Source: Bacillota bacterium
Lineage (GTDB): Bacteria > Bacillota > Clostridia > Oscillospirales > Oscillospiraceae
Reading direction: 5' to 3'
Assembly (NCBI GenBank): GCA_017861415.1
Contig: JAGFXS010000040.1
Location: 1 to 10,179, forward strand
DNA length: 10,179 nt
In this document: positions 1 through 10,179 of the stretch, piece after piece
How positions within the stretch are numbered: position 1 is the first letter of the stretch
Layout: every line of letters starts with the position of its first letter
Notes under the pieces: model-generated
Database searches by the model: none
The model's input: the letters and a program-made list of their open reading frames with translations, nothing else
Told to the model about the DNA's origin: nothing
Translations under genes and position numbers: made by a program

Positions 1-1296
1 TCCTCCTCTACGGCGGAACTGATCTTCAACGAGGTGAAGGTGCCCAAAAAAAACCTGTTGGGCAAGGAGGGCGATGGCTTTAAAATTGCCATGGCCACTC
101 TGGATGGCGGCCGTATCGGCATTGCTGCCCAGGCTCTGGGCATCGCCCAGGGCGCTTATGAGCAGGCCGTTACCTATGCCAAGGAGCGGGTACAGTTTGG
201 AAAGCCCATCGGCTTCCAACAGGCCATTTCCTTTAAGCTTGCCGACATGGCCACCAAGCTTCGCAGCGCTCGCCTGCTGGTCTACTCCGCCGCGGATATG
301 AAGGAGCACCACGTTCCCTACGGCATGGAGTCTGCCATGGCAAAGCAGTACGCCTCGGACATTGCCCTGGAAGTGACCAATGACGCCCTCCAGATTTTCG
401 GCGGTACCGGCTACCTCAAGGGCATGGATGTGGAGCGGATGTACCGCGACGCTAAAATCACCACCATCTACGAGGGCACCAACGAAATCCAGCGGGTCAT
501 CATTGCCTCTCACATTCTGGGCAAGCCCCCCAAGGAGGAGGGTTCCTCTGTCGGTTCCCTCCAGAAAGCAGCCCCCATCACCGGTCTGCGCAAGCGGGTG
601 ATTTACCGCGAGGGCTCGCCAGAGGATCAGGTCGCCGCCTTGGTGGAATCCCTAAAGAAGAACGGTATTGACTTCTCCGTTGGCATCCCTATGGATACCC
701 CCATCTCCGCAGCTGAGCGGGTAGTTTCCGCCGGTCTTGGCGTCGGCTCCCAGGAAAATATGAAGCTGGTGGAGAATTTGGCCCGGGCCGCCGGGGCAGC
801 CATCGGCAGCTCCCGCCCCGTGGCGGAAACCCTGAAATATTTGCCCCTTGACCGCTACGTGGGTATGTCTGGCCAGAAATTCAGGGGCAACCTCTACATC
901 GCCTGCGGCATTTCCGGCGCCAGCCAGCACCTGAAGGGCATTAAAGATGCCTCTATCATCGTGGCCATCAACAAGGACGGCAGTGCCCCCATCTTTAAGA
1001 ACTGTGACTACGGCATCGTGGGTGATGTCAACGAGATTCTGCCCCTGCTCACCGCAGCACTGGGTACAGGAGAAAAGGAAGCCGCCCCTCCCATGGTGAA
1101 AATAAAGCGTCCCCAGGTGCCCAAACCTGCACCCATCGGGCCTACCTACATTTGCAGTGGCTGCGGCTACGCCTATGTGCCTGAGACTGGCGACCAGGAT
1201 AACGACGTCCCTCCGGGCACCCTGTTTGCCAAGCTACCGGAATCTTGGGTCTGCCCGGAATGTGCCGAGCCCCGAGATCAATTTGTTCAGGCATAA
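1..1296 (+). CDS. Acyl-CoA dehydrogenase / ETF-alpha FAD domain / rubredoxin fusion protein (5' partial)
   Basis: The reading frame is open from base 1, so the true start lies outside the window; the GTG at 34 falls inside a conserved acyl-CoA dehydrogenase segment and is not the start. Three domains are visible. (1) Bases 1-525 are the C-terminal part of a butyryl-CoA-dehydrogenase-like enzyme, with RVQFGKPI, the FGGTGY motif and [10 protein letters not shown], whose Glu (472-474) is the family's catalytic base. (2) About 595-1065 is the FAD-binding C-terminal domain of ETF alpha, with [21 protein letters not shown] and AINKD. The N-terminal ETF-alpha domain is absent. (3) About 1138-1290 is a rubredoxin, with CxxCGY and WVCPEC; the iron ligands are the Cys codons at 1153, 1162, 1252 and 1261. 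A Pro/Ala/Lys-rich linker joins (2) and (3). Roughly the first 215 residues are missing if the dehydrogenase is of normal length. The protein should pass acyl-CoA electrons to a rubredoxin partner; the adjacent flavodiiron protein is the obvious candidate (inference). Confidence 0.93.
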
Positions 1297-1317
1297 CGCC
1301 GAAGGGAGGAACGCTAG

Positions 1318-2526
1318 ATGTATTCTGTCAGAACCGTAACCGACGACCTTTACTGGGTCGGCGCCAATGACCATCGATTGGCCTTATTTGAAAACGCATA
1401 CCCCATCCCCAGAGGTGTCTCCTATAATTCCTATCTGCTGCTGGATGAGAAAACCGTCCTCTTTGATACCGTGGACTGGTCCGCCTGCCGGCAGCTGCTG
1501 GAAAATGTGAATCATCTGCTGTCGGGCCGCCCGCTGGATTATCTAGTCATCAATCATTTAGAGCCGGACCATGCCGGTTCCATTGAGGAAATCCTCCTCC
1601 GTTGGCCTAATATCACCGTCATCAGCAACGAAAAGGCCTTTATGCTCATGCGTCAGTTTGGCTTTCATGTGGACGAGCATGCCACTGTTCAAGTTAAGGA
1701 GGGCGACACCTTCAGCTTTGGCACCCACACCGTCACCTTTGTGTTCGCACCCATGGTCCATTGGCCTGAGGTAATGGTCACATTTGACCTCACAAACGGT
1801 GTTCTCTTCTCCGCTGATGCCTTCGGTACCTTCGGCGCTCTGGACGGAAAGCTCTTCGCCGATGAGGTGAACTTCGACCGGGATTGGCTGGACGACGCCC
1901 GGCGCTACCTCACCAATATCGTGGGGAAATACGGCCCCCACATTCAGCTGCTTTTGAAAAAGGCAGGTGGAATACTGGATCAGATCAAATTTATTTGCCC
2001 CCTCCACGGCCCAGTTTGGCGAGAGGATCTCATGTATTTTATCCGAAAATACGACCTGTGGAGCCGGTATCTCCCCGAGGAAAAGGGCGTACTCATCGCC
2101 TACGCTTCCATGTACGGCAACACCGAGTCTGTCGCCCAGGCTCTGGCCGCCAGGCTTTGCGACAAGGGCATGACCAATGTCGCCCTGTATGATGTCTCCT
2201 CCACCCATGTGTCTCAGCTGATCTCCGAGTCCTTCAAATACAGCCACATGGTGCTGGCCAGCGTCACCTATAATCTTGGAATTTACCCCGCCATGCACAA
2301 CCTCCTCATAGACATGAAAGCCTTAAACGTCCAGAATCGCACAGTAGCCATTGTGGAGAACGGCTCTTGGGCGGTGAAATCAGGAGATCTGATCTCTAAG
2401 TTTCTCACCGATGAGATGAAAAAAATGACGGTGCTTAATGAGCGTATCAGTATTGCCTCTTCCCTGGGGGCGGACAAGGCCTCGGAGATTGACACCCTCG
2501 CCGATGCCATTCTTGCTTCCATGTAG
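1318..2526 (+). CDS. fprA: A-type flavodiiron protein (O2/NO reductase), FprA family
   Basis: This 402-residue protein has the standard length and order of a class A flavodiiron protein: an N-terminal metallo-beta-lactamase-like diiron domain, then a flavodoxin domain. All diiron ligands are present: His80, Glu82, Asp84 and His85 (NHLEPDH), His148 (MVHWPE), Asp167 (SADAFG) and His230 (CPLHGP). The FMN phosphate loop is seen around residues 264-270 (SMYGNTE). The family is cytoplasmic and reduces O2 to water or NO to N2O, usually taking electrons from rubredoxin. The start is ATG with GGGAGGA about 8 bases upstream. The gene follows the rubredoxin-carrying fusion gene by 21 bases with no terminator between them, so the two are probably co-transcribed and the fused rubredoxin domain is a likely donor (inference). 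A terminator follows. Whether O2 or NO is the physiological substrate cannot be read from the sequence. Confidence 0.96.
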   Translation: MYSVRTVTDDLYWVGANDHRLALFENAYPIPRGVSYNSYLLLDEKTVLFDTVDWSACRQLLENVNHLLSGRPLDYLVINHLEPDHAGSIEEILLRWPNITVISNEKAFMLMRQFGFHVDEHATVQVKEGDTFSFGTHTVTFVFAPMVHWPEVMVTFDLTNGVLFSADAFGTFGALDGKLFADEVNFDRDWLDDARRYLTNIVGKYGPHIQLLLKKAGGILDQIKFICPLHGPVWREDLMYFIRKYDLWSRYLPEEKGVLIAYASMYGNTESVAQALAARLCDKGMTNVALYDVSSTHVSQLISESFKYSHMVLASVTYNLGIYPAMHNLLIDMKALNVQNRTVAIVENGSWAVKSGDLISKFLTDEMKKMTVLNERISIASSLGADKASEIDTLADAILASM

Positions 2527-2563
2527 AGCCTGCACCCGCGCTCCTTCCCCTATCTTTTTTGCG

Positions 2564-2605
2564 AAGAAGCCCATCATCCTCATAGGGACAATGGGCTTCT
2601 TTTTC
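2564..2605 (+). terminator. Rho-independent terminator after the flavodiiron gene
   Basis: A perfect 11-bp stem (AAGAAGCCCAT at 2564-2574 paired with ATGGGCTTCTT at 2591-2601) is followed directly by a T run (2600-2604). The 16-base loop can form a further CCT/AGG pairing. It lies about 38 bases after the flavodiiron stop codon and closes the fusion/fprA transcription unit. Confidence 0.9.
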
Positions 2606-2699
2606 CCTGGAGAAAGCAGGATGTCCCCCAATTAGGTAAAATTTCACTGCAAAACTATTAAAATGATCGTTGCGGGCACAAGTATACCCCTGGGAATTG

Positions 2700-2711
2700 T
2701 GGTAAATACCA
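2700..2711. promoter_or_regulatory. Inverted repeat just upstream of the nfn -35 element (candidate operator)
   Basis: TGGTA-AA-TACCA is a perfect 12-bp dyad that ends one base before the proposed -35 hexamer of the nfnAB promoter. Its position suits an activator or repressor site. I do not recognise the binding protein, and such a short dyad may be chance. Confidence 0.35.
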
Positions 2712-2712
2712 A

Positions 2713-2740
2713 TTGAGTCCTACCTCAGGCATGCTATACT
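2713..2740 (+). promoter_or_regulatory. Promoter of nfnAB (extended -10)
   Basis: The -35 element is TTGAGT (2713-2718), followed by a 16-base spacer and TATACT (2735-2740), which is preceded by TGC to give an extended -10. Five of six -10 bases and four of six -35 bases match the SigA consensus. Transcription would start near 2747, leaving a leader of about 85 bases before nfnA. The element lies downstream of the fprA terminator, so nfnAB is a separate transcription unit. Confidence 0.7.
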
Positions 2741-2756
2741 ATATTCAACATGATAA

Positions 2757-2776
2757 ATTGGGTCATTTTACCCAAT
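2757..2776. promoter_or_regulatory. Inverted repeat at the start of the nfn leader (candidate operator or hairpin)
   Basis: ATTGGGT-CATTTT-ACCCAAT is a perfect 7-bp dyad with a 6-base loop, beginning 16 bases after the -10 element, so it covers the first transcribed bases. It could be a repressor site or a 5' hairpin that stabilises the mRNA. A similar single half (ATTAGGTAAAAT) occurs at about 2632-2643. No known regulator is assigned. Confidence 0.4.
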
Positions 2777-2830
2777 CGGTGGCCCGATGTATGATGCCAA
2801 GGAGCCGCCCAATGGTTTTGGAGGACGCTT

Positions 2831-3670
2831 ATGTACCGTATCGTTAATAAAAAGCAATTGAACCAGTTCGCCACTCTCATGGAGATTGAGGCTCCTCTTG
2901 TCGCTGACAAGGCTAAGGCTGGTCAGTTTATCATTTTTCGGATTGATACCCAGGGAGAACGCGTCCCCCTGACCATTGCCGACTACAACCGGGATGCAGG
3001 GACTATCACCCTCATTTTTCAGGCAGTTGGTCAGACAACCACACGGCTATCCCAGATGAATGTTGGCGATCAGCTCCTGGATTTGGTGGGGCCACTGGGG
3101 AATCCTACCCATTTTGACGGGGCGAAAAATGTCTGTGTCATTGGCGGAGGCGTTGGCTGTGCCATTGCCTACCCCCAGGCAAAAGCCCTGTTTCGGGAGA
3201 GTGCCCGGGTCACCGTGATCGCCGGCTTCCGCAGCGGAGAGCATGTCCTTCTGGAGGAAGAGCTTCGTCAGGTCTCCCATAGCCTTTTCATCACCACGGA
3301 TGACGGTTCCTATGGAGAGGCTGGCTTTGTCACCACCAAGCTCCAAGACCTCATCGAGGCCGGAAACCAATTTGACCTTGTAATCACCATCGGCCCGGTA
3401 CCCATGATGAAATCTGTGTCCCTACTCACCAAAAACTACGGGATCAAAACTCTGGTAAGCCTAAATCCCATCATGATTGACGGCACCGGCATGTGCGGCG
3501 GCTGCCGGGTCACCGTGGACGGCGCCTTGAAATTTGCCTGCGTAGACGGGCCTGATTTTGACGGCCACCTAGTAGACTTCGATGAGCTGATGCTCCGCAA
3601 CACTGTTTATAAGGAAATTGAGACCCACCGCTGCCGCCTATCGGAAGGGGAAAACCATGCAGACACATAA
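2831..3670 (+). CDS. nfnA: NADH-dependent ferredoxin:NADP+ oxidoreductase subunit alpha (NfnA)
   Basis: This 279-residue protein is of the ferredoxin-NADP reductase / PyrK-like type. Visible are the FAD-binding RVPLTI (residues 44-50), the nucleotide-binding GGGVGCA (105-111), and a C-terminal [2Fe-2S] site with Asp217, Cys222, Cys225 and Cys237; one Asp and three Cys is the ligand pattern known for NfnA. In the Nfn complex this subunit handles NADH and the [2Fe-2S] cluster, while NfnB bifurcates electrons between ferredoxin and NAD. The ATG is preceded by GGAGG with a 6-base spacer. The end overlaps the nfnB start by 14 bases, indicating translational coupling. On its own it could be mistaken for the dihydroorotate dehydrogenase subunit PyrK or a sulfide dehydrogenase subunit; the partner gene settles it as NfnA. 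Confidence 0.92.
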   Translation: MYRIVNKKQLNQFATLMEIEAPLVADKAKAGQFIIFRIDTQGERVPLTIADYNRDAGTITLIFQAVGQTTTRLSQMNVGDQLLDLVGPLGNPTHFDGAKNVCVIGGGVGCAIAYPQAKALFRESARVTVIAGFRSGEHVLLEEELRQVSHSLFITTDDGSYGEAGFVTTKLQDLIEAGNQFDLVITIGPVPMMKSVSLLTKNYGIKTLVSLNPIMIDGTGMCGGCRVTVDGALKFACVDGPDFDGHLVDFDELMLRNTVYKEIETHRCRLSEGENHADT

Positions 3671-5042
3671 GACGCCAATGCCAGAGCAGCCCCCCCAGTT
3701 GCGCGTGCGCAATTTTGACGAGGTTGCGTTGGGCTACACCGAGGAAATGGCCCTGCAAGAGGCCGCCCGCTGCCTCAACTGTAAAACCAAACCCTGTGTC
3801 GCCGCCTGCCCAGTGAACGTCCATATCCCGGAGTTCATTCAGGCCGTGGTGGACCGGGACTATGAAAAAGCCTACCACATCATCACCGAAACCAATTCCA
3901 TGCCCGCCATTTGTGGGCGGGTTTGCCCCCAGGAAACCCAGTGCGAGGCAAAATGCGTCCTTGCTGCCAAGCACGAGCCGGTAGCCATTGGGCGGCTGGA
4001 ACGCTTTGTGGCCGACTGGTATATGAAAAACATTAAGGACGCAGTGATTGCTCCCTCGCCCAACGGAAAAAAAGTGGCCACCATCGGTGCCGGGCCTTCC
4101 GGACTCTCCTGCGCCTACGATCTTGCCATCAAGGGCTACGATGTCACCATTTTTGAGGCTCTCCACGAAGCCGGTGGCGTGCTGGCCTATGGAATCCCCG
4201 AATTTCGGCTGCCAACCTGGGTCATTAACTATGAAATCGGACGTTTGCTGGAGCTGGGCGTCGACATCAAGTGCAATGTGGTCATTGGCAGGGCCCTGGA
4301 CATGGACGATCTGTTCTCCCGTGGCTTTGACGCCGTGTATATCGCTTCAGGGGCCGGTCTGCCCAACTTCATGAATATCGAGGGAGAAAACTTAAAGGGT
4401 GTTTACTCCGCCAACGAGTACCTCACCCGAGTGAATCTGATGAAAAGCTACCAGAAGGACGCCGGGACTCCCATTCGCCAGAGCCGGGCTGTGGCGGTGG
4501 TGGGAGGTGGCAACGTAGCCATGGATGCGGTGCGCTGTGCCAAGCGATTGGGAGCTGAGACCGTATACCTCATCTACCGCCGCTCTGAGGAAGAGATGCC
4601 CGCCCGCCTAGAGGAGGCGCACCACGCCAAAGAGGAGGGGGTAATTTTTCGCACCCTCACCAATCCCATCCGCATTTTGGGAGACGAGACCGGCCAGGTT
4701 TCTGCTATCGAATGCGTGGAAATGTCCCTGGGCGAGGCCGACGCCTCCGGCCGCCGAAGCGCCCACCCTAAGGAGGGCACAGAGTTCCTTCTCCCGGTGG
4801 ACACCGTGATTATGGCTATCGGCACCTCTCCGAACCCTCTGGTCACCCGGGCCATAAAGGATCTGGAAACCAACCGCCACGGCTGTATCGTCACCGACGC
4901 TGGCATGCAGACCAGCATTCGTAACATCTATGCCGGCGGGGATGCAGTGAAGGGTGCGGCTACGGTTATCTATGCCATGGGCACCGGGAAGATCGCCGCA
5001 GAGTCCATCCACCGCTCTCTTTCGGAGCCTCCAACAGATTGA
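3657..5042 (+). CDS. nfnB: NADH-dependent ferredoxin:NADP+ oxidoreductase subunit beta (NfnB, GltD-like)
   Basis: This 461-residue protein starts at the ATG at 3657, which has GGAAGGGG just upstream and gives the typical MxTHKTPMPEQ N-terminus. The in-frame TTG at 3618 lacks a ribosome binding site. Cysteines for two [4Fe-4S] clusters are present (Cys39, 42, 47, 51 and Cys86, 90, 96, 100). The FAD dinucleotide loop is GAGPSGL (144-150), and the NADP loop is GGGNVAMD (283-290) followed by YRRSEEEMPAR, whose arginines favour NADP(H). A second FAD-contact segment, IYAGGDAVKGA, is near the C-terminus. With NfnA this cytoplasmic flavoprotein couples NADPH oxidation to reduction of NAD+ and ferredoxin, or the reverse. 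It resembles the small subunit of glutamate synthase, but no gltB is present and nfnA is directly upstream. It is the last gene before a shared terminator. Confidence 0.93.
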   Translation: MQTHKTPMPEQPPQLRVRNFDEVALGYTEEMALQEAARCLNCKTKPCVAACPVNVHIPEFIQAVVDRDYEKAYHIITETNSMPAICGRVCPQETQCEAKCVLAAKHEPVAIGRLERFVADWYMKNIKDAVIAPSPNGKKVATIGAGPSGLSCAYDLAIKGYDVTIFEALHEAGGVLAYGIPEFRLPTWVINYEIGRLLELGVDIKCNVVIGRALDMDDLFSRGFDAVYIASGAGLPNFMNIEGENLKGVYSANEYLTRVNLMKSYQKDAGTPIRQSRAVAVVGGGNVAMDAVRCAKRLGAETVYLIYRRSEEEMPARLEEAHHAKEEGVIFRTLTNPIRILGDETGQVSAIECVEMSLGEADASGRRSAHPKEGTEFLLPVDTVIMAIGTSPNPLVTRAIKDLETNRHGCIVTDAGMQTSIRNIYAGGDAVKGAATVIYAMGTGKIAAESIHRSLSEPPTD

Positions 5043-5109: not shown

Positions 5110-5991
5110 TCAGTCCTCCAGATCCCCGATTTCTTCCAAGGGTGCGTGCATATTTCGGTAGTGTTCTGTAAAGGAAACCTCTCGCCCTTGGGATTTATAG
5201 CCCACCATGGTGTCCAGGCAAAGGGAGTGGATGCTGCTGAATATACTCTTTTCGATGTTTGGATTGTCCCGCTTCAGATGGCGGATGAGAGTTTTGATCT
5301 CCTGCCGTTTCGACCCGCCTCCGCCGTTGTCACACATGGTGCACAGCTCAGTAAAGCGGCAGGCGCACTGTATGAACTCCAGATCGTTGTAGCGCTTCCA
5401 GGCCAAGATGTCCTCCTCGTGGATGCAGTACAAGGGACGTATCAGCTCCATGCCCTCAAAATTCCGACTGCGCAGCTTTGGCGGCATGGCCTGGAGCTGG
5501 GAGCCGTAGAACATCCCCATCACCGTGGTCTCGATGACATCGCTGAAGTGGTGGCCCAGGGCAATTTTATTGCAGCCCCGCTTCTTCGCCTCGCTGTACA
5601 GGTGTCCCCGGCGCATTCTGGCGCACAGATAACAAGGAGACTGGTCGGTGTTGTTGGCGATTGCAAAGATATCCGTTTCAAAAATGGTAATTGGCACATG
5701 GAGCAGCGCGGCGTTGCTTTCGATTTTCTGCCGATTTACTTCGTTGTAGCCCGGGTCCATCACCAGAAACAGAAGCTCAAAGGGGACATCACTGTGCCGA
5801 TGAAGCTCCTGCATAAGCTTAGCCATGAGCATGGAGTCCTTCCCCCCGGAGATGCAGACGGCAATTTTATCCCCCGCCTCCACCAGCTGATACCGTTTTA
5901 CCGCCAGGATAAAGGGCTTCCATATTTGTTTTCTAAATTTTTTGTTGATGCTTCGTTCAATGAGCTGATGCTGTTCCAGTTCCCTGCCCAT
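5110..5991 (-). CDS. ttcA: PP-loop ATPase, TtcA-like tRNA 2-thiocytidine synthase
   Basis: This 293-residue protein carries the ATP-pyrophosphatase PP-loop SGGKDS (48-53), PCxLCARMRRG with Cys120 and Cys123, and an AMPPKL...IRPLYC segment seen in TtcA. It then has Cys209, 211, 217 and 220 before a GGGG-SKRQ stretch. In E. coli TtcA, two cysteines of the first CxxC and one later cysteine hold a [4Fe-4S] cluster used to thiolate C32 of some tRNAs; the spacing here fits that family, with more cysteines than usual in the second group. The start is ATG with GGGAGG five to six bases upstream. It is the third gene of a minus-strand set led by tcdA, 45 bases after a cysteine desulfurase that could supply its sulfur. 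Many such genes in Clostridia are annotated only as 'ATP-binding protein', so the exact target nucleoside is inferred. Confidence 0.8.
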   Translation of the reverse strand: MGRELEQHQLIERSINKKFRKQIWKPFILAVKRYQLVEAGDKIAVCISGGKDSMLMAKLMQELHRHSDVPFELLFLVMDPGYNEVNRQKIESNAALLHVPITIFETDIFAIANNTDQSPCYLCARMRRGHLYSEAKKRGCNKIALGHHFSDVIETTVMGMFYGSQLQAMPPKLRSRNFEGMELIRPLYCIHEEDILAWKRYNDLEFIQCACRFTELCTMCDNGGGGSKRQEIKTLIRHLKRDNPNIEKSIFSSIHSLCLDTMVGYKSQGREVSFTEHYRNMHAPLEEIGDLED

Positions 5992-6036
5992 AATATCCTC
6001 CCGAATGTGGTTCCGTGGGTATTGTACTATGCTCTG

Positions 6037-7158
6037 CTACCGGCAAAGAGCCTGATAGCAGCGGTCAAATGCCTCTAAAAATCTCTGAAGCTCTTCCTCC
6101 GTGGTCAGGTGGCTCAGACTGATGCGCCAGGAGGACAAAGCGTTTTTTCGATCCCGGCTCACGGCAAAGACCGCCCGGGAGGGGGTGCCCTCCGCCGCGC
6201 AGGCTGACTTCACCGACACGCAGACGCCTTCTTCATCCAGCGCCTGCTGGAAGACCCCGGCCTTCACTCCCTGAACGCTCAGGTTCAGAATATGGGGCAC
6301 CGCTTCAAGTGGGCTGTTGATCCGCACCTTGGGATAGGCCCCGATGGCTTCTCGCAGGGCCCGATTTTTCTCCTGAACTTGAACCGTCCGCTCATTCAGT
6401 TGATGAAGGGCCAACTCCAAGGCCGCCTCCAGCCCGGCAGCCAGGGCTAGGGCCGGGGTGCCGCTGCGGTAGATGGTGGTGCTGGTTCCCCCGTGTATTA
6501 GGGGTTCAAGCGAGGTGCCTGTTCGCTTAATCAGAAGTCCGCTGCCCTTGAGTCCGTAAAACTTGTGGGGCGCAAGACTCACGGTGTCCGCTAGAGAGAG
6601 ATCAAGCGACACCTTCCCCACGGCTTGGGTAGCATCCACGTGGAGTCGGCAGCTTGTCCCCTGACGGAGAAGCGCTGCAATCTCTACAATGGGCTGAATG
6701 GTACCCAGCTCGCTGTCCACGGCACAAATTGCCGCCAGCACCGTGTCCTTCCGCAGCAGATACTTCAAGTGCGCTGTATCCACTGTGCCGTCTCGGCGGA
6801 TGTCCACCAGATCAATTTCATAGCCCTGCTCCTGGAGAACCGTCAGGCAGCCGCTAACCGAGGAGTGCTCAAGCGGGGTGGAAATAATGTGCCTGCCCAC
6901 GTGGCGATAGGCACGCACCAACCCCTTGATAGCGGTGTTGTTGGACTCGCTGGCTCCGGAGGTATAGATGATTTCCTCGGGGATGACCTCCAACAATCCG
7001 GCGATAGACGCCGTAATCCGGCAGAGTTCCTCCTGTGCCTCACGCCCTACCCGATGCCGGGCATTTGGGTTTCCCGGAAATGCTGCCTCTGCCTGGCAGA
7101 AGCGCGCCAGCACCGCCGGATCAACCGGTGTAGTGGCGGAGTAATCCAGATAGATCAT
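6037..7158 (-). CDS. Cysteine desulfurase, NifS/IscS family (PLP enzyme)
   Basis: This 373-residue class V aminotransferase-fold protein starts with MIYLDYSATTPVD, the classic N-terminus of the family. Visible sites are TSGASESNN (PLP phosphate region), His98 in the EHSS motif (PLP stacking), HVDATQAVGK with Asp175 and Gln178, the PLP-binding Lys199 in the APHKFYG motif, and the persulfide Cys320 in the KSACAAEG loop. It removes sulfur from cysteine to give alanine and an enzyme persulfide. No iscU or other scaffold lies beside it; instead it sits between tcdA (ATGA overlap, so translationally coupled) and a TtcA-like gene, so a role in tRNA thiolation and in TcdA function is likely. This recalls E. 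coli csdA-csdE-tcdA, though no csdE is present. The loop ending in SACAAEG is slightly divergent, so I give no paralogue name. Confidence 0.92.
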   Translation of the reverse strand: MIYLDYSATTPVDPAVLARFCQAEAAFPGNPNARHRVGREAQEELCRITASIAGLLEVIPEEIIYTSGASESNNTAIKGLVRAYRHVGRHIISTPLEHSSVSGCLTVLQEQGYEIDLVDIRRDGTVDTAHLKYLLRKDTVLAAICAVDSELGTIQPIVEIAALLRQGTSCRLHVDATQAVGKVSLDLSLADTVSLAPHKFYGLKGSGLLIKRTGTSLEPLIHGGTSTTIYRSGTPALALAAGLEAALELALHQLNERTVQVQEKNRALREAIGAYPKVRINSPLEAVPHILNLSVQGVKAGVFQQALDEEGVCVSVKSACAAEGTPSRAVFAVSRDRKNALSSWRISLSHLTTEEELQRFLEAFDRCYQALCR

Positions 7159-7925
7159 CCTCGCCCGCCTCCCGCCCAGGCAAGATCCTTTACAACCTCC
7201 CCGGCGATGATCAGCCCCGCCACGGCGGGAACAAAGGCGTTACTGCCGGGCACTTGCCGCCGCTGGACGCAGGTGCGCGCCGCCTCGGGCGGACAGACGC
7301 AGTGGGTGTGGCAGCTGGCCTCCAAATCCTCCAGGGGCTTCATGGCAGGCTCTTTAGAGTAGACCACCTTCAGTCTAGCAATCCCGCGTTTTTTCAGCTC
7401 CCGGCGCATTACCCGAGCCAAGGGGCAAACGGAGGTCTCGTAGATATCCGCCACCTGCAAGGCGGTGGGATCCATCTTATTCCCTGCCCCCATACAGCTA
7501 ATAATGGGAACACCGCTCCGGTTGGCCTGCTCCACCAGCTCCAGCTTGCCGGAAACGGTGTCTATGGCGTCCACCACGTAGTCATACTGGGAAAAGTCAA
7601 ACTGCCCTGCTGTTTCCGGGGTGTAAAACACCTGATGGGTATGCACCACAGCCTTAGGGTTGATTTCCCCCACCCGATCCCGTGCTACCTCGACCTTCTG
7701 TTTGCCGATGGTCTTGTAGGTGGCGACAATCTGCCGGTTGAGGTTGGTGAGACACACCCGATCGTCGTCAATGAGATCCAGAGTGCCGACACCACTGCGA
7801 GCCAGTGCCTCAACGGTGTAGCCTCCCACACCCCCGATGCCAAACACCGCCACCCGAGCCAATCGCAGGCGCTCCAACCCCTCTTTTCCCAATAATAGTT
7901 CCGTTCTTGAAAACTGGTTTAACAT
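7155..7925 (-). CDS. tcdA: tRNA threonylcarbamoyladenosine dehydratase (TcdA/CsdL, ThiF/MoeB superfamily)
   Basis: This 256-residue E1-like enzyme has the ATP-binding loop GIGGVGGYTVEALARSG (about 29-45), the D-D-D-R-V-x-x-T-N-x-N-R-Q motif (53-65) of the ThiF/MoeB superfamily, and the TcdA-specific CMGAGNKMDPT and CPLARVMRRELKKRGI stretches. TcdA uses ATP to dehydrate t6A at tRNA position 37 to the cyclic form ct6A. A late cysteine group (CHTHCVCPPEAARTC) lies in the region where relatives carry metal- or sulfur-linked cysteines. The ATG is preceded on the minus strand by AGGAG at 6 bases. Its stop overlaps the desulfurase start as ATGA. It is the first gene of the minus-strand unit, with a leader of about 110 bases. 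Confidence 0.93.
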   Translation of the reverse strand: MLNQFSRTELLLGKEGLERLRLARVAVFGIGGVGGYTVEALARSGVGTLDLIDDDRVCLTNLNRQIVATYKTIGKQKVEVARDRVGEINPKAVVHTHQVFYTPETAGQFDFSQYDYVVDAIDTVSGKLELVEQANRSGVPIISCMGAGNKMDPTALQVADIYETSVCPLARVMRRELKKRGIARLKVVYSKEPAMKPLEDLEASCHTHCVCPPEAARTCVQRRQVPGSNAFVPAVAGLIIAGEVVKDLAWAGGGRG

Positions 7926-8415: not shown

Positions 8416-9036
8416 TTATCCTTCCACCACAGCCTTATAATTCTCTGCCACGGTCTTCCAGTCAATCACTTCATAGTAAGCCTTGATATAATCCGGGCGC
8501 AGGTTCTTGTACTTCAGATAGTAAGCGTGCTCCCAGACGTCAATGCCTAAGATGGGGATGAATCCCGACTTTTCGATGATGGGGTTATCCTGGTTGGGGC
8601 TGGAGGAGAGCTTCAGCTCCCCCGCCTTGTTAGCGGAAAGCCAGGCCCAGCCAGAGCCGAACTGGCCCGTAGCCAGCTTCGTAAACTGCTCCCGGAAGGC
8701 TTCATAGCTGCCGAAGGTCTTCAGGAATATCTCTCCAAACTCTCCCGTGGGCTGGCCGCCGCCGTTGGGGCTCATGGTAGAGAAATACAGATTGTGATTA
8801 TAGAAGCCGCCGCTGTTGTTGCGAAGGGCGGTACGCAGACCCTGGTCGGTGACAGTCTCCAAAGAGCTCATCAGCTCCTCAATCCCCAAGTGAGAAAGCC
8901 CCGCCTTCTCAGCGGCGTCGTTTAAGTTCTTGGTGTAGGTAGCGTGATGTTTGCTGTAGTGGGTCTCCATGGTTAAAGCGTCAACATGAGGCTCAAGGGC
9001 TTCATAAGAATAAGGCAGTTGAACTTGATAAAACAT
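8416..9036 (-). CDS. sodA: Superoxide dismutase, Fe/Mn family, Mn-type signature
   Basis: The protein is 206 residues from the ATG at 9036, which has AAAGGAG 8 bases upstream; an in-frame TTG at 9054 lies within the ribosome-binding region and is rejected. The N-terminal helical hairpin begins FYQVQLPYSYEALEPH. Metal ligands are His26, His81 (FYNHNLYF), Asp166 and His170 (GIDVWEHAYYLKY); Tyr34 and His30 complete the active site. Gly77 together with a Gln at about 149 in the NQDNP motif resembles Mn-type enzymes, while HYSKHH at 26-31 is closer to Fe-type, so metal use could be mixed. The enzyme converts superoxide to O2 and H2O2 in the cytoplasm; there is no signal peptide. It is monocistronic, divergent from a flavodiiron gene, which suggests shared oxygen-stress control. 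Confidence 0.97.
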   Translation of the reverse strand: MFYQVQLPYSYEALEPHVDALTMETHYSKHHATYTKNLNDAAEKAGLSHLGIEELMSSLETVTDQGLRTALRNNSGGFYNHNLYFSTMSPNGGGQPTGEFGEIFLKTFGSYEAFREQFTKLATGQFGSGWAWLSANKAGELKLSSSPNQDNPIIEKSGFIPILGIDVWEHAYYLKYKNLRPDYIKAYYEVIDWKTVAENYKAVVEG

Positions 9037-9094
9037 AGTGATTGCTCCTTTCAAAATTCTGTATGTACGTATATTGCGTCAAATTTTCTCTTGT

Positions 9095-9196: not shown

Positions 9197-9250
9197 CACT
9201 AACATGTTTTTTCTGTTTTTATTATACATATTTAAGAGGAGGTTTTGACT

Positions 9251-10179
9251 TTGCATTGCGTCAAACAAGTGGATCAAGACTTATACTGGGTGGGCGGCAA
9301 CGACCGCCGTTTGACTTTATTTGAGAACATTCATCCCATCCCCAAGGGCATCTCCTACAACTCCTTTTTGCTGATGGATGAGAAAACGGTGCTGCTGGAC
9401 ACCGTGGACCGTGCTATCACCGACCTGTTTATGGAAAACGTCCTCCACGTACTGGATCAGCGGCCTCTGGACTACATTGTCATGAACCACATGGAGCCGG
9501 ATCACTGCGGCACCCTAATTGACCTGCTGCGCCTGTATCCCAAGGCCATTGTGGTGGGAAACCCCAAAACCTTTCAGATTATCCGGCAGCTGTACAACCT
9601 CACCCTAGAGGACCGCTCCCTGGTGGTTGGCAACGGAGACACGCTGGTGACAGGCAAGCACACCCTGCGCTTTATCACCATGCCCATGGTTCACTGGCCG
9701 GAGGTGATGGCTACCTTTGATGAGACCAACGGCACCCTCTTCTCTGCAGATGCCTTCGGCACCTTCGGTGCCCTATCCGGGCATCTCTTTGCAGACGAGC
9801 TGGAGTTTGAAAAGGACTGGCTGGATGAAACCAGACGGTACTACAGCAACATTGTGGGAAAGTATGGCTCGCAGGTGCAGGATGCCTTCAAGAAGCTGCT
9901 TCCCCTCAATCCCCGGATGATTTGCCCCCTCCACGGCCCTGTGTGGCGGAAAAATCTGGACTACATTCTGGACAAGTATCAGAAGTGGAGCCTGTATCAG
10001 CCGGAAGAACCAGGGGTGGTCATTGCCTGCGGCTCCATCTACGGCAACACAGAAAACGCAGCCAATATTTTAGCCTACCGCCTAGGGGATCTGGGTGTGC
10101 GGCGGGTTGTCCTGTACGATGTTTCTGCCACAGACCCCTCCTATATCCTCTCCGATGTATTTCGGTTCAGCCATCTGGT
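9251..10179 (+). CDS. fprA: Second A-type flavodiiron protein, FprA family (3' partial, TTG start)
   Basis: The frame is open from an in-frame TAA at 9233 to the window end, giving 309 codons of a protein that should be about 400. The start is TTG at 9251, with AGAGGAGG (9235-9242) 8 bases upstream; the TTG at 9245 is too close to that site. With this start the N-terminus aligns without a gap to the flavodiiron protein at 1318 (M-x-x-V-x-x-V-x-x-DLYWVG; 37 of the first 60 residues identical by hand count). Diiron ligands His80, Glu82, Asp84, His85, His148, Asp167 and His228 are all present, and the flavodoxin loop GSIYGNTEN follows before truncation. One difference is Cys86 (DHCGT) where the first copy has Ala. 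It is expected to reduce O2 or NO; its divergent pairing with sodA supports an oxygen-defence role (inference). Confidence 0.95.
   Translation, partial: MHCVKQVDQDLYWVGGNDRRLTLFENIHPIPKGISYNSFLLMDEKTVLLDTVDRAITDLFMENVLHVLDQRPLDYIVMNHMEPDHCGTLIDLLRLYPKAIVVGNPKTFQIIRQLYNLTLEDRSLVVGNGDTLVTGKHTLRFITMPMVHWPEVMATFDETNGTLFSADAFGTFGALSGHLFADELEFEKDWLDETRRYYSNIVGKYGSQVQDAFKKLLPLNPRMICPLHGPVWRKNLDYILDKYQKWSLYQPEEPGVVIACGSIYGNTENAANILAYRLGDLGVRRVVLYDVSATDPSYILSDVFRFSHL

Follow-up and report, generated by a model that had tools for sequence, protein, structure and literature searches.

A probable BOOR-type pair in a genome of the Oscillospiraceae: an acyl-CoA dehydrogenase–EtfA–rubredoxin fusion and its flavodiiron neighbour

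Do two adjacent genes at the edge of a bacterial contig encode a complete electron wire that runs from acyl-CoA to O2 or NO? Such a wire had been proposed in the initial annotation of the window, which is the whole stretch of 10,179 nucleotides analysed here. The window is contig C109 of an assembly of 1.27 Mb in 152 contigs that is 72.87% complete. The two genes and their parts are as follows.

1..1296, + strand: 3' part of a BCR-type fusion gene (431 amino acids), its 5' end cut by the contig end
Residues 24-172 of the fusion, + strand: Acyl-CoA_dh_1 domain (Pfam E 4e-52)
469..480, + strand: YEGT motif of the dehydrogenase part, present in all of the best 120 homologues listed
703..945 (residues 235-315), + strand: ETF_alpha, the EtfA FAD-binding domain (Pfam E 1e-26), aligned to the genome's own EtfA
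1147..1284 (residues 383-428), + strand: rubredoxin domain with CSGCG and CPEC (Pfam E 2e-17)
1153-1167 and 1252-1263, + strand: rubredoxin Cys pairs (motif positions)
1297..1317, + strand: gap of 21 bases between the two genes, with a GGGAGG ribosome-binding-like site ahead of the ATG
1318..2526, + strand: class A flavodiiron protein (FDP) of BOOR type, 402 amino acids (Pfam ODP/Lactamase_B and Flavodoxin_1)

Along the fusion, Pfam places first the C-terminal acyl-CoA dehydrogenase domain, then the EtfA FAD domain and last the rubredoxin, which is the order that had been read from the sequence. The rubredoxin had been credited with four Cys, and both Cys pairs are found; we take them to be the FeCys4 ligands. 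The accompanying claim of an acyl-CoA dehydrogenase with its catalytic Glu holds for the residue but not for the whole enzyme: the YEGT motif, which presumably holds the catalytic Glu of short-chain acyl-CoA dehydrogenases, is in place, but only the ~175 C-terminal residues of the dehydrogenase lie in the window because the contig begins inside the fusion gene. In a homologue search with the fusion, 7,999 of the 8,000 proteins scored pass E 1e-20. Among the best 120 of these 7,999, YEGT, CxxCG and CPxC are each found in 120 of 120, GISGAxQH in 119 and SSRPVAE in 114. Three homologues (P0002, P0003 and P0026) appear by eye to carry an internal stretch twice over, possibly through assembly errors. 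Among the 60 listed of 190 matching PDB sequences, each matches the fusion over a single stretch, in either the dehydrogenase or the EtfA part, and none spans the whole fusion.

The matching N-terminal half of the fusion is found on another contig of the same assembly (G000:C82, 988-2, - strand), in an open frame of 329 residues that holds the N-terminal and middle dehydrogenase domains. This piece is 99% identical to residues 1-329 of the homologue P0001, a protein of 636 residues that also has N-terminal dehydrogenase domains and shares 99% identity with the window fusion. The two contig ends overlap (window 1-373 against C82 373-1) with 97.6% identity over 373 bases. The likeliest reading is that the window and C82 form a single locus that was split in the assembly, with strain variation; that the C82 piece is a second copy of the fusion is the less likely alternative. 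On C82, an Rrf2-family regulator gene (1058-1468, - strand) lies 69 bases upstream of the fusion start codon on the same strand, and beyond it stands a divergent acyl-CoA dehydrogenase gene (1865-3016, + strand). Among 94 comparison loci, 84 (two of them with rubredoxin-less fusions) have at least 700 bases of upstream sequence, and an Rrf2 gene precedes the fusion in at least 34 of the 84, a lower bound because the queries were one Rrf2 protein cluster from the same loci.

Downstream of the fusion, a flavodiiron gene with its diiron ligands had been placed 21 bases on. The gap measures 21 bases, and the four motifs HLEPDH, MVHWPE, SADAFG and CPLHGP, which we take to be the diiron ligand motifs, all fall within 1555-2013. 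Pfam finds no rubredoxin domain in this FDP. Its nearest NCBIfam models are flavorubredoxin NO reductases, which it matches at 214 bits against a curated cut-off of 635. The flavorubredoxin NO reductase (NorV) family was rejected on this score and on the lack of a fused rubredoxin. The NorV type and the window pair have in common an FDP core with rubredoxin as electron donor, but in NorV the rubredoxin sits on the FDP, whereas in the window pair it sits on the dehydrogenase. Bifurcating Bcd-EtfAB was also rejected as a family for the fusion. Its dehydrogenase and EtfA FAD domain are homologous to those of the window fusion, but the fusion has no EtfB and no full EtfA (the EtfA N-terminal domain is missing, so that only the FAD domain is present), carries a rubredoxin in addition, and coexists with a separate EtfB-EtfA-Bcd-like cluster on contig C55, whose genes match their best NCBIfam models below the curated cut-offs.

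The remainder of the window holds several further genes. A pair at 2831-5042 (+ strand) scores above the NCBIfam cut-offs for PRK06222, a sulfide/dihydroorotate dehydrogenase-like FAD/NAD protein, and for gltA, an NADPH-dependent glutamate synthase, and presumably resembles the NfnAB transhydrogenase subunits. Three consecutive genes at 5110-7925 (- strand) have TtcA, the cysteine desulfurase NifS and TcdA as their best NCBIfam models, all below cut-off. An Fe/Mn superoxide dismutase gene (8416-9054, - strand) is divergent from a second FDP gene (9245-10177, + strand), which is cut by the contig end; its product is 55% identical to the first FDP and lies outside the BOOR FDP group.

That the fusion usually lies beside a flavodiiron gene, as the initial annotation would have it, was examined by counting FDPs from tblastn matches in several sets of genomes, and the opposite outcome was not found. 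A survey of named genomes took the 80 best loci of 485 relatives in genome contigs, a choice that leans to close relatives because only the best matches enter it. Four of these loci (L038, L064, L065 and L070) end less than 100 bases downstream of the fusion; an FDP follows in all 76 assessable ones, its match starting 17-478 bases after the last matched codon of the fusion. The FDP is shortened by a contig end in L042, L051, L086 and L089 and is in two pieces in L048. A sample of the family (101 genomes) yields 11 rubredoxin-bearing fusions with E values no higher than 1.6e-100, including a fragment at a contig end, and an FDP is next in 11 of 11, the window included. In a sample of the class (391 genomes), 32 have a match at E 1e-36, 31 of these are rubredoxin-bearing fusions, and all 31 have an FDP next (29 in L137-L165, genome G344 in L200, and the window). 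A sample of the phylum (398 genomes), searched with a rubredoxin-less fusion as query and with at most three candidates scored per genome, gives at least four rubredoxin-bearing fusions (L166-L169), each followed by an FDP; two of the four, in genomes G217 and G131, were already counted in the class sample. The sets overlap further, as the window's genome is in both the family and class samples, and G022 and G050 of the family sample look the same as L069 and L061 of the named genomes. On these surveys (76/76, 11/11 and 31/31), the FDP as a chance neighbour of the fusion was rejected. One locus, L131 of Vescimonas fastidiosa, has its Rrf2-BOOR set on a replicon of 142 kb that was deposited as a plasmid (pMM35_02); genes for a nitroreductase and for another FDP-like MBL protein lie downstream.

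A pair of this kind has been described in Fusobacterium. According to section 8 of PMC12288474, whose source is Bystrom & Wolthers (2024, Biochemistry 63:2352), Fusobacterium BOOR couples the oxidation of butyryl-CoA to the reduction of O2; BCR and FDP assemble into a complex with four subunits of each, and this complex is reported there to have no NO reductase activity. A wire from acyl-CoA through FAD, FAD and rubredoxin to the FDP and O2 is reported for this pair in the available text of PMC12288474 and PMC12630350, the latter naming it FN1423-FN1424. The BOOR of F. nucleatum has the same domain order as the window fusion, and its class A FDP adjoins the fusion on the same strand, as in the window. 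A co-linear pair was found by tblastn in the plasmid collection, on the 2.1-Mb record NZ_CP084075.1 of F. vincentii SB055, which is labelled a plasmid. The F. vincentii fusion has 636 residues and is 70.8% identical across the 431 residues of the window fusion, and the FDP 24 bases after it is 65.0% identical to the window FDP, both figures being against the F. vincentii proteins. The other FDP of F. vincentii is only 38% identical to the window FDP, and the second FDP of the window is 51% identical to the F. vincentii BOOR-type FDP over 310 residues. The loci differ upstream: an Rrf2 search gave no match in the F. vincentii stretch, whereas C82 has its Rrf2 gene.

In a tree of 54 FDP rows, which were the author's choice from the loci rather than every FDP, the 47 fusion-adjacent FDPs, those of the window and F. 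vincentii included, form one side of a branch with support 93/99, the 93 being slightly under the tool's mark of 95. The branch is present in 94% of 200 bootstrap trees, and none of 500 shuffles came as low. The seven other FDPs, among them the second FDP of the window, are on the opposite side; several of the seven are on long branches, and the tool gives their positions as unsure. The window pair is thus likely, judged by sequence, to be an orthologue of the Fusobacterium pair.

The two genes very probably encode a BOOR orthologue, a reading based on the domains, motifs and adjacency, the similarity to F. vincentii and the separate FDP group. By orthology, what is published for Fusobacterium on the path of the electrons, the subunit complex, the substrate and the acceptor would apply to the window organism too. 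The fusion (BCR) would oxidise butyryl-CoA or a similar short acyl-CoA at the dehydrogenase FAD, from which electrons would move to the EtfA-domain FAD and on to the fused rubredoxin. The rubredoxin would reduce the FMN and then the diiron site of the FDP, which would reduce O2 to water. Butyryl-CoA metabolism is plausible in this genome, given its EtfB-EtfA-Bcd-like cluster and one clear 3-hydroxyacyl-CoA dehydrogenase gene. Searches of the genome for the RnfC_N and NQR2_RnfD_RnfE families gave no match, which is weak evidence because the assembly is 73% complete; the energy-conserving cycle that has been proposed in Fusobacterium may therefore not apply in full here.

Electrons could also be spread more widely. 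Reduced rubredoxins are often promiscuous, and the window holds both a second FDP and a superoxide dismutase, so that the fusion could be a general acyl-CoA:rubredoxin reductase that also feeds rubrerythrin or the second FDP at 9245. This is improbable, as the rubredoxin is tethered, the fusion-adjacent FDPs group apart from the second FDP of the window, and the available text of PMC12288474 reports a two-protein complex for Fusobacterium.

The acceptor itself had been left as O2 or NO, and the two do not fare alike: O2 would hold, as reported for the Fusobacterium orthologue, and NO would fall away. A pair acting mainly as an acyl-CoA:NO reductase would fit the nearest NCBIfam models of the FDP and the Rrf2 family of the upstream regulator, in that PMC13404960, as far as the available preprint goes, likens one BOOR-linked regulator to NsrR. 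It is nonetheless very unlikely, since the score of 214 bits is far under the cut-off, the BOOR-type FDP of F. vincentii reaches a similar score (202 bits), and the Fusobacterium complex is reported in PMC12288474 to be without NO reductase activity. O2 is the likely acceptor for this last reason.

Bcd-type enzymes are reversible, and among NCBIfam models acryloyl-CoA reductase fits the dehydrogenase part best. A reverse flow, in which a rubredoxin reduced elsewhere would pass electrons through the EtfA FAD to the dehydrogenase and crotonyl-CoA or acryloyl-CoA while the FDP was merely co-regulated, is scarcely credible, as the truncated protein reaches 250 bits against a cut-off of 640, the F. 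vincentii fusion at full length also falls short of that mark (485 bits), every assessable locus has an FDP beside the fusion, these FDPs group separately, and butyryl-CoA oxidation coupled to O2 reduction is what PMC12288474 reports.

Both BOOR and its occurrence in gut Firmicutes have already been published, the idea by 2024, and the window pair is a further example of BOOR and no new kind of system. Its surroundings also have a published counterpart. In gut Clostridia, Rrf2-BOOR neighbourhoods with Rrf2 upstream of the fusion, as on C82, are described in the available text of PMC13404960, a preprint of 2026; among 149 neighbourhoods of its Rrf2 cluster, the fusion architecture is present in 123 and the FDP in 115. 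The C82 regulator belongs to the Rrf2 family, as does the preprint's C0FN14, of which it may be an orthologue. Judged by these neighbours and the preprint, the upstream Rrf2 regulator may control the BOOR pair.

Fusions that end after the EtfA domain are also known from the surveys. Searches with several queries and at differing cut-offs gave a non-exhaustive list of six dehydrogenase-EtfA(C) fusions that lack rubredoxin; five have 561-572 residues, and the sixth, in L197, has an internal stop.

Rubredoxin-less fusions: L116 5279-6973; L117 4974-6656; L196 6975-8690; L198 4617-6305; L199 6386-8068

None of the six (0/6, stretches of 7-14 kb) has a BOOR-group FDP nearby. The five loci listed have no FDP match at all in the stretch read, which in L117 extends only 557 bases downstream of the fusion, and L197 has a divergent FDP nearby that is outside the BOOR group. 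The L198 fusion has a 3-hydroxyacyl-CoA dehydrogenase gene on one side and an acetyl-CoA hydrolase/transferase gene on the other. The sequences suggest that rubredoxin and FDP may be gained or lost together. Tentatively, but quite possibly, the dehydrogenase-EtfA(C) chassis has two wirings: one, BOOR, in which rubredoxin and a dedicated FDP are present, and one with neither, as a self-contained acyl-CoA flavoenzyme with another partner. If so, the rubredoxin tail would act as an adaptor through which the enzyme is tied to O2.

A reading of the raw sequence has thus recovered a real and recently published electron chain. That fusion and FDP are so tightly linked across the loci surveyed speaks for the generality of the published mechanism. 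The window adds one more genome to those that carry this system, with which butyrate producers may clear oxygen at a cost in butyrate.
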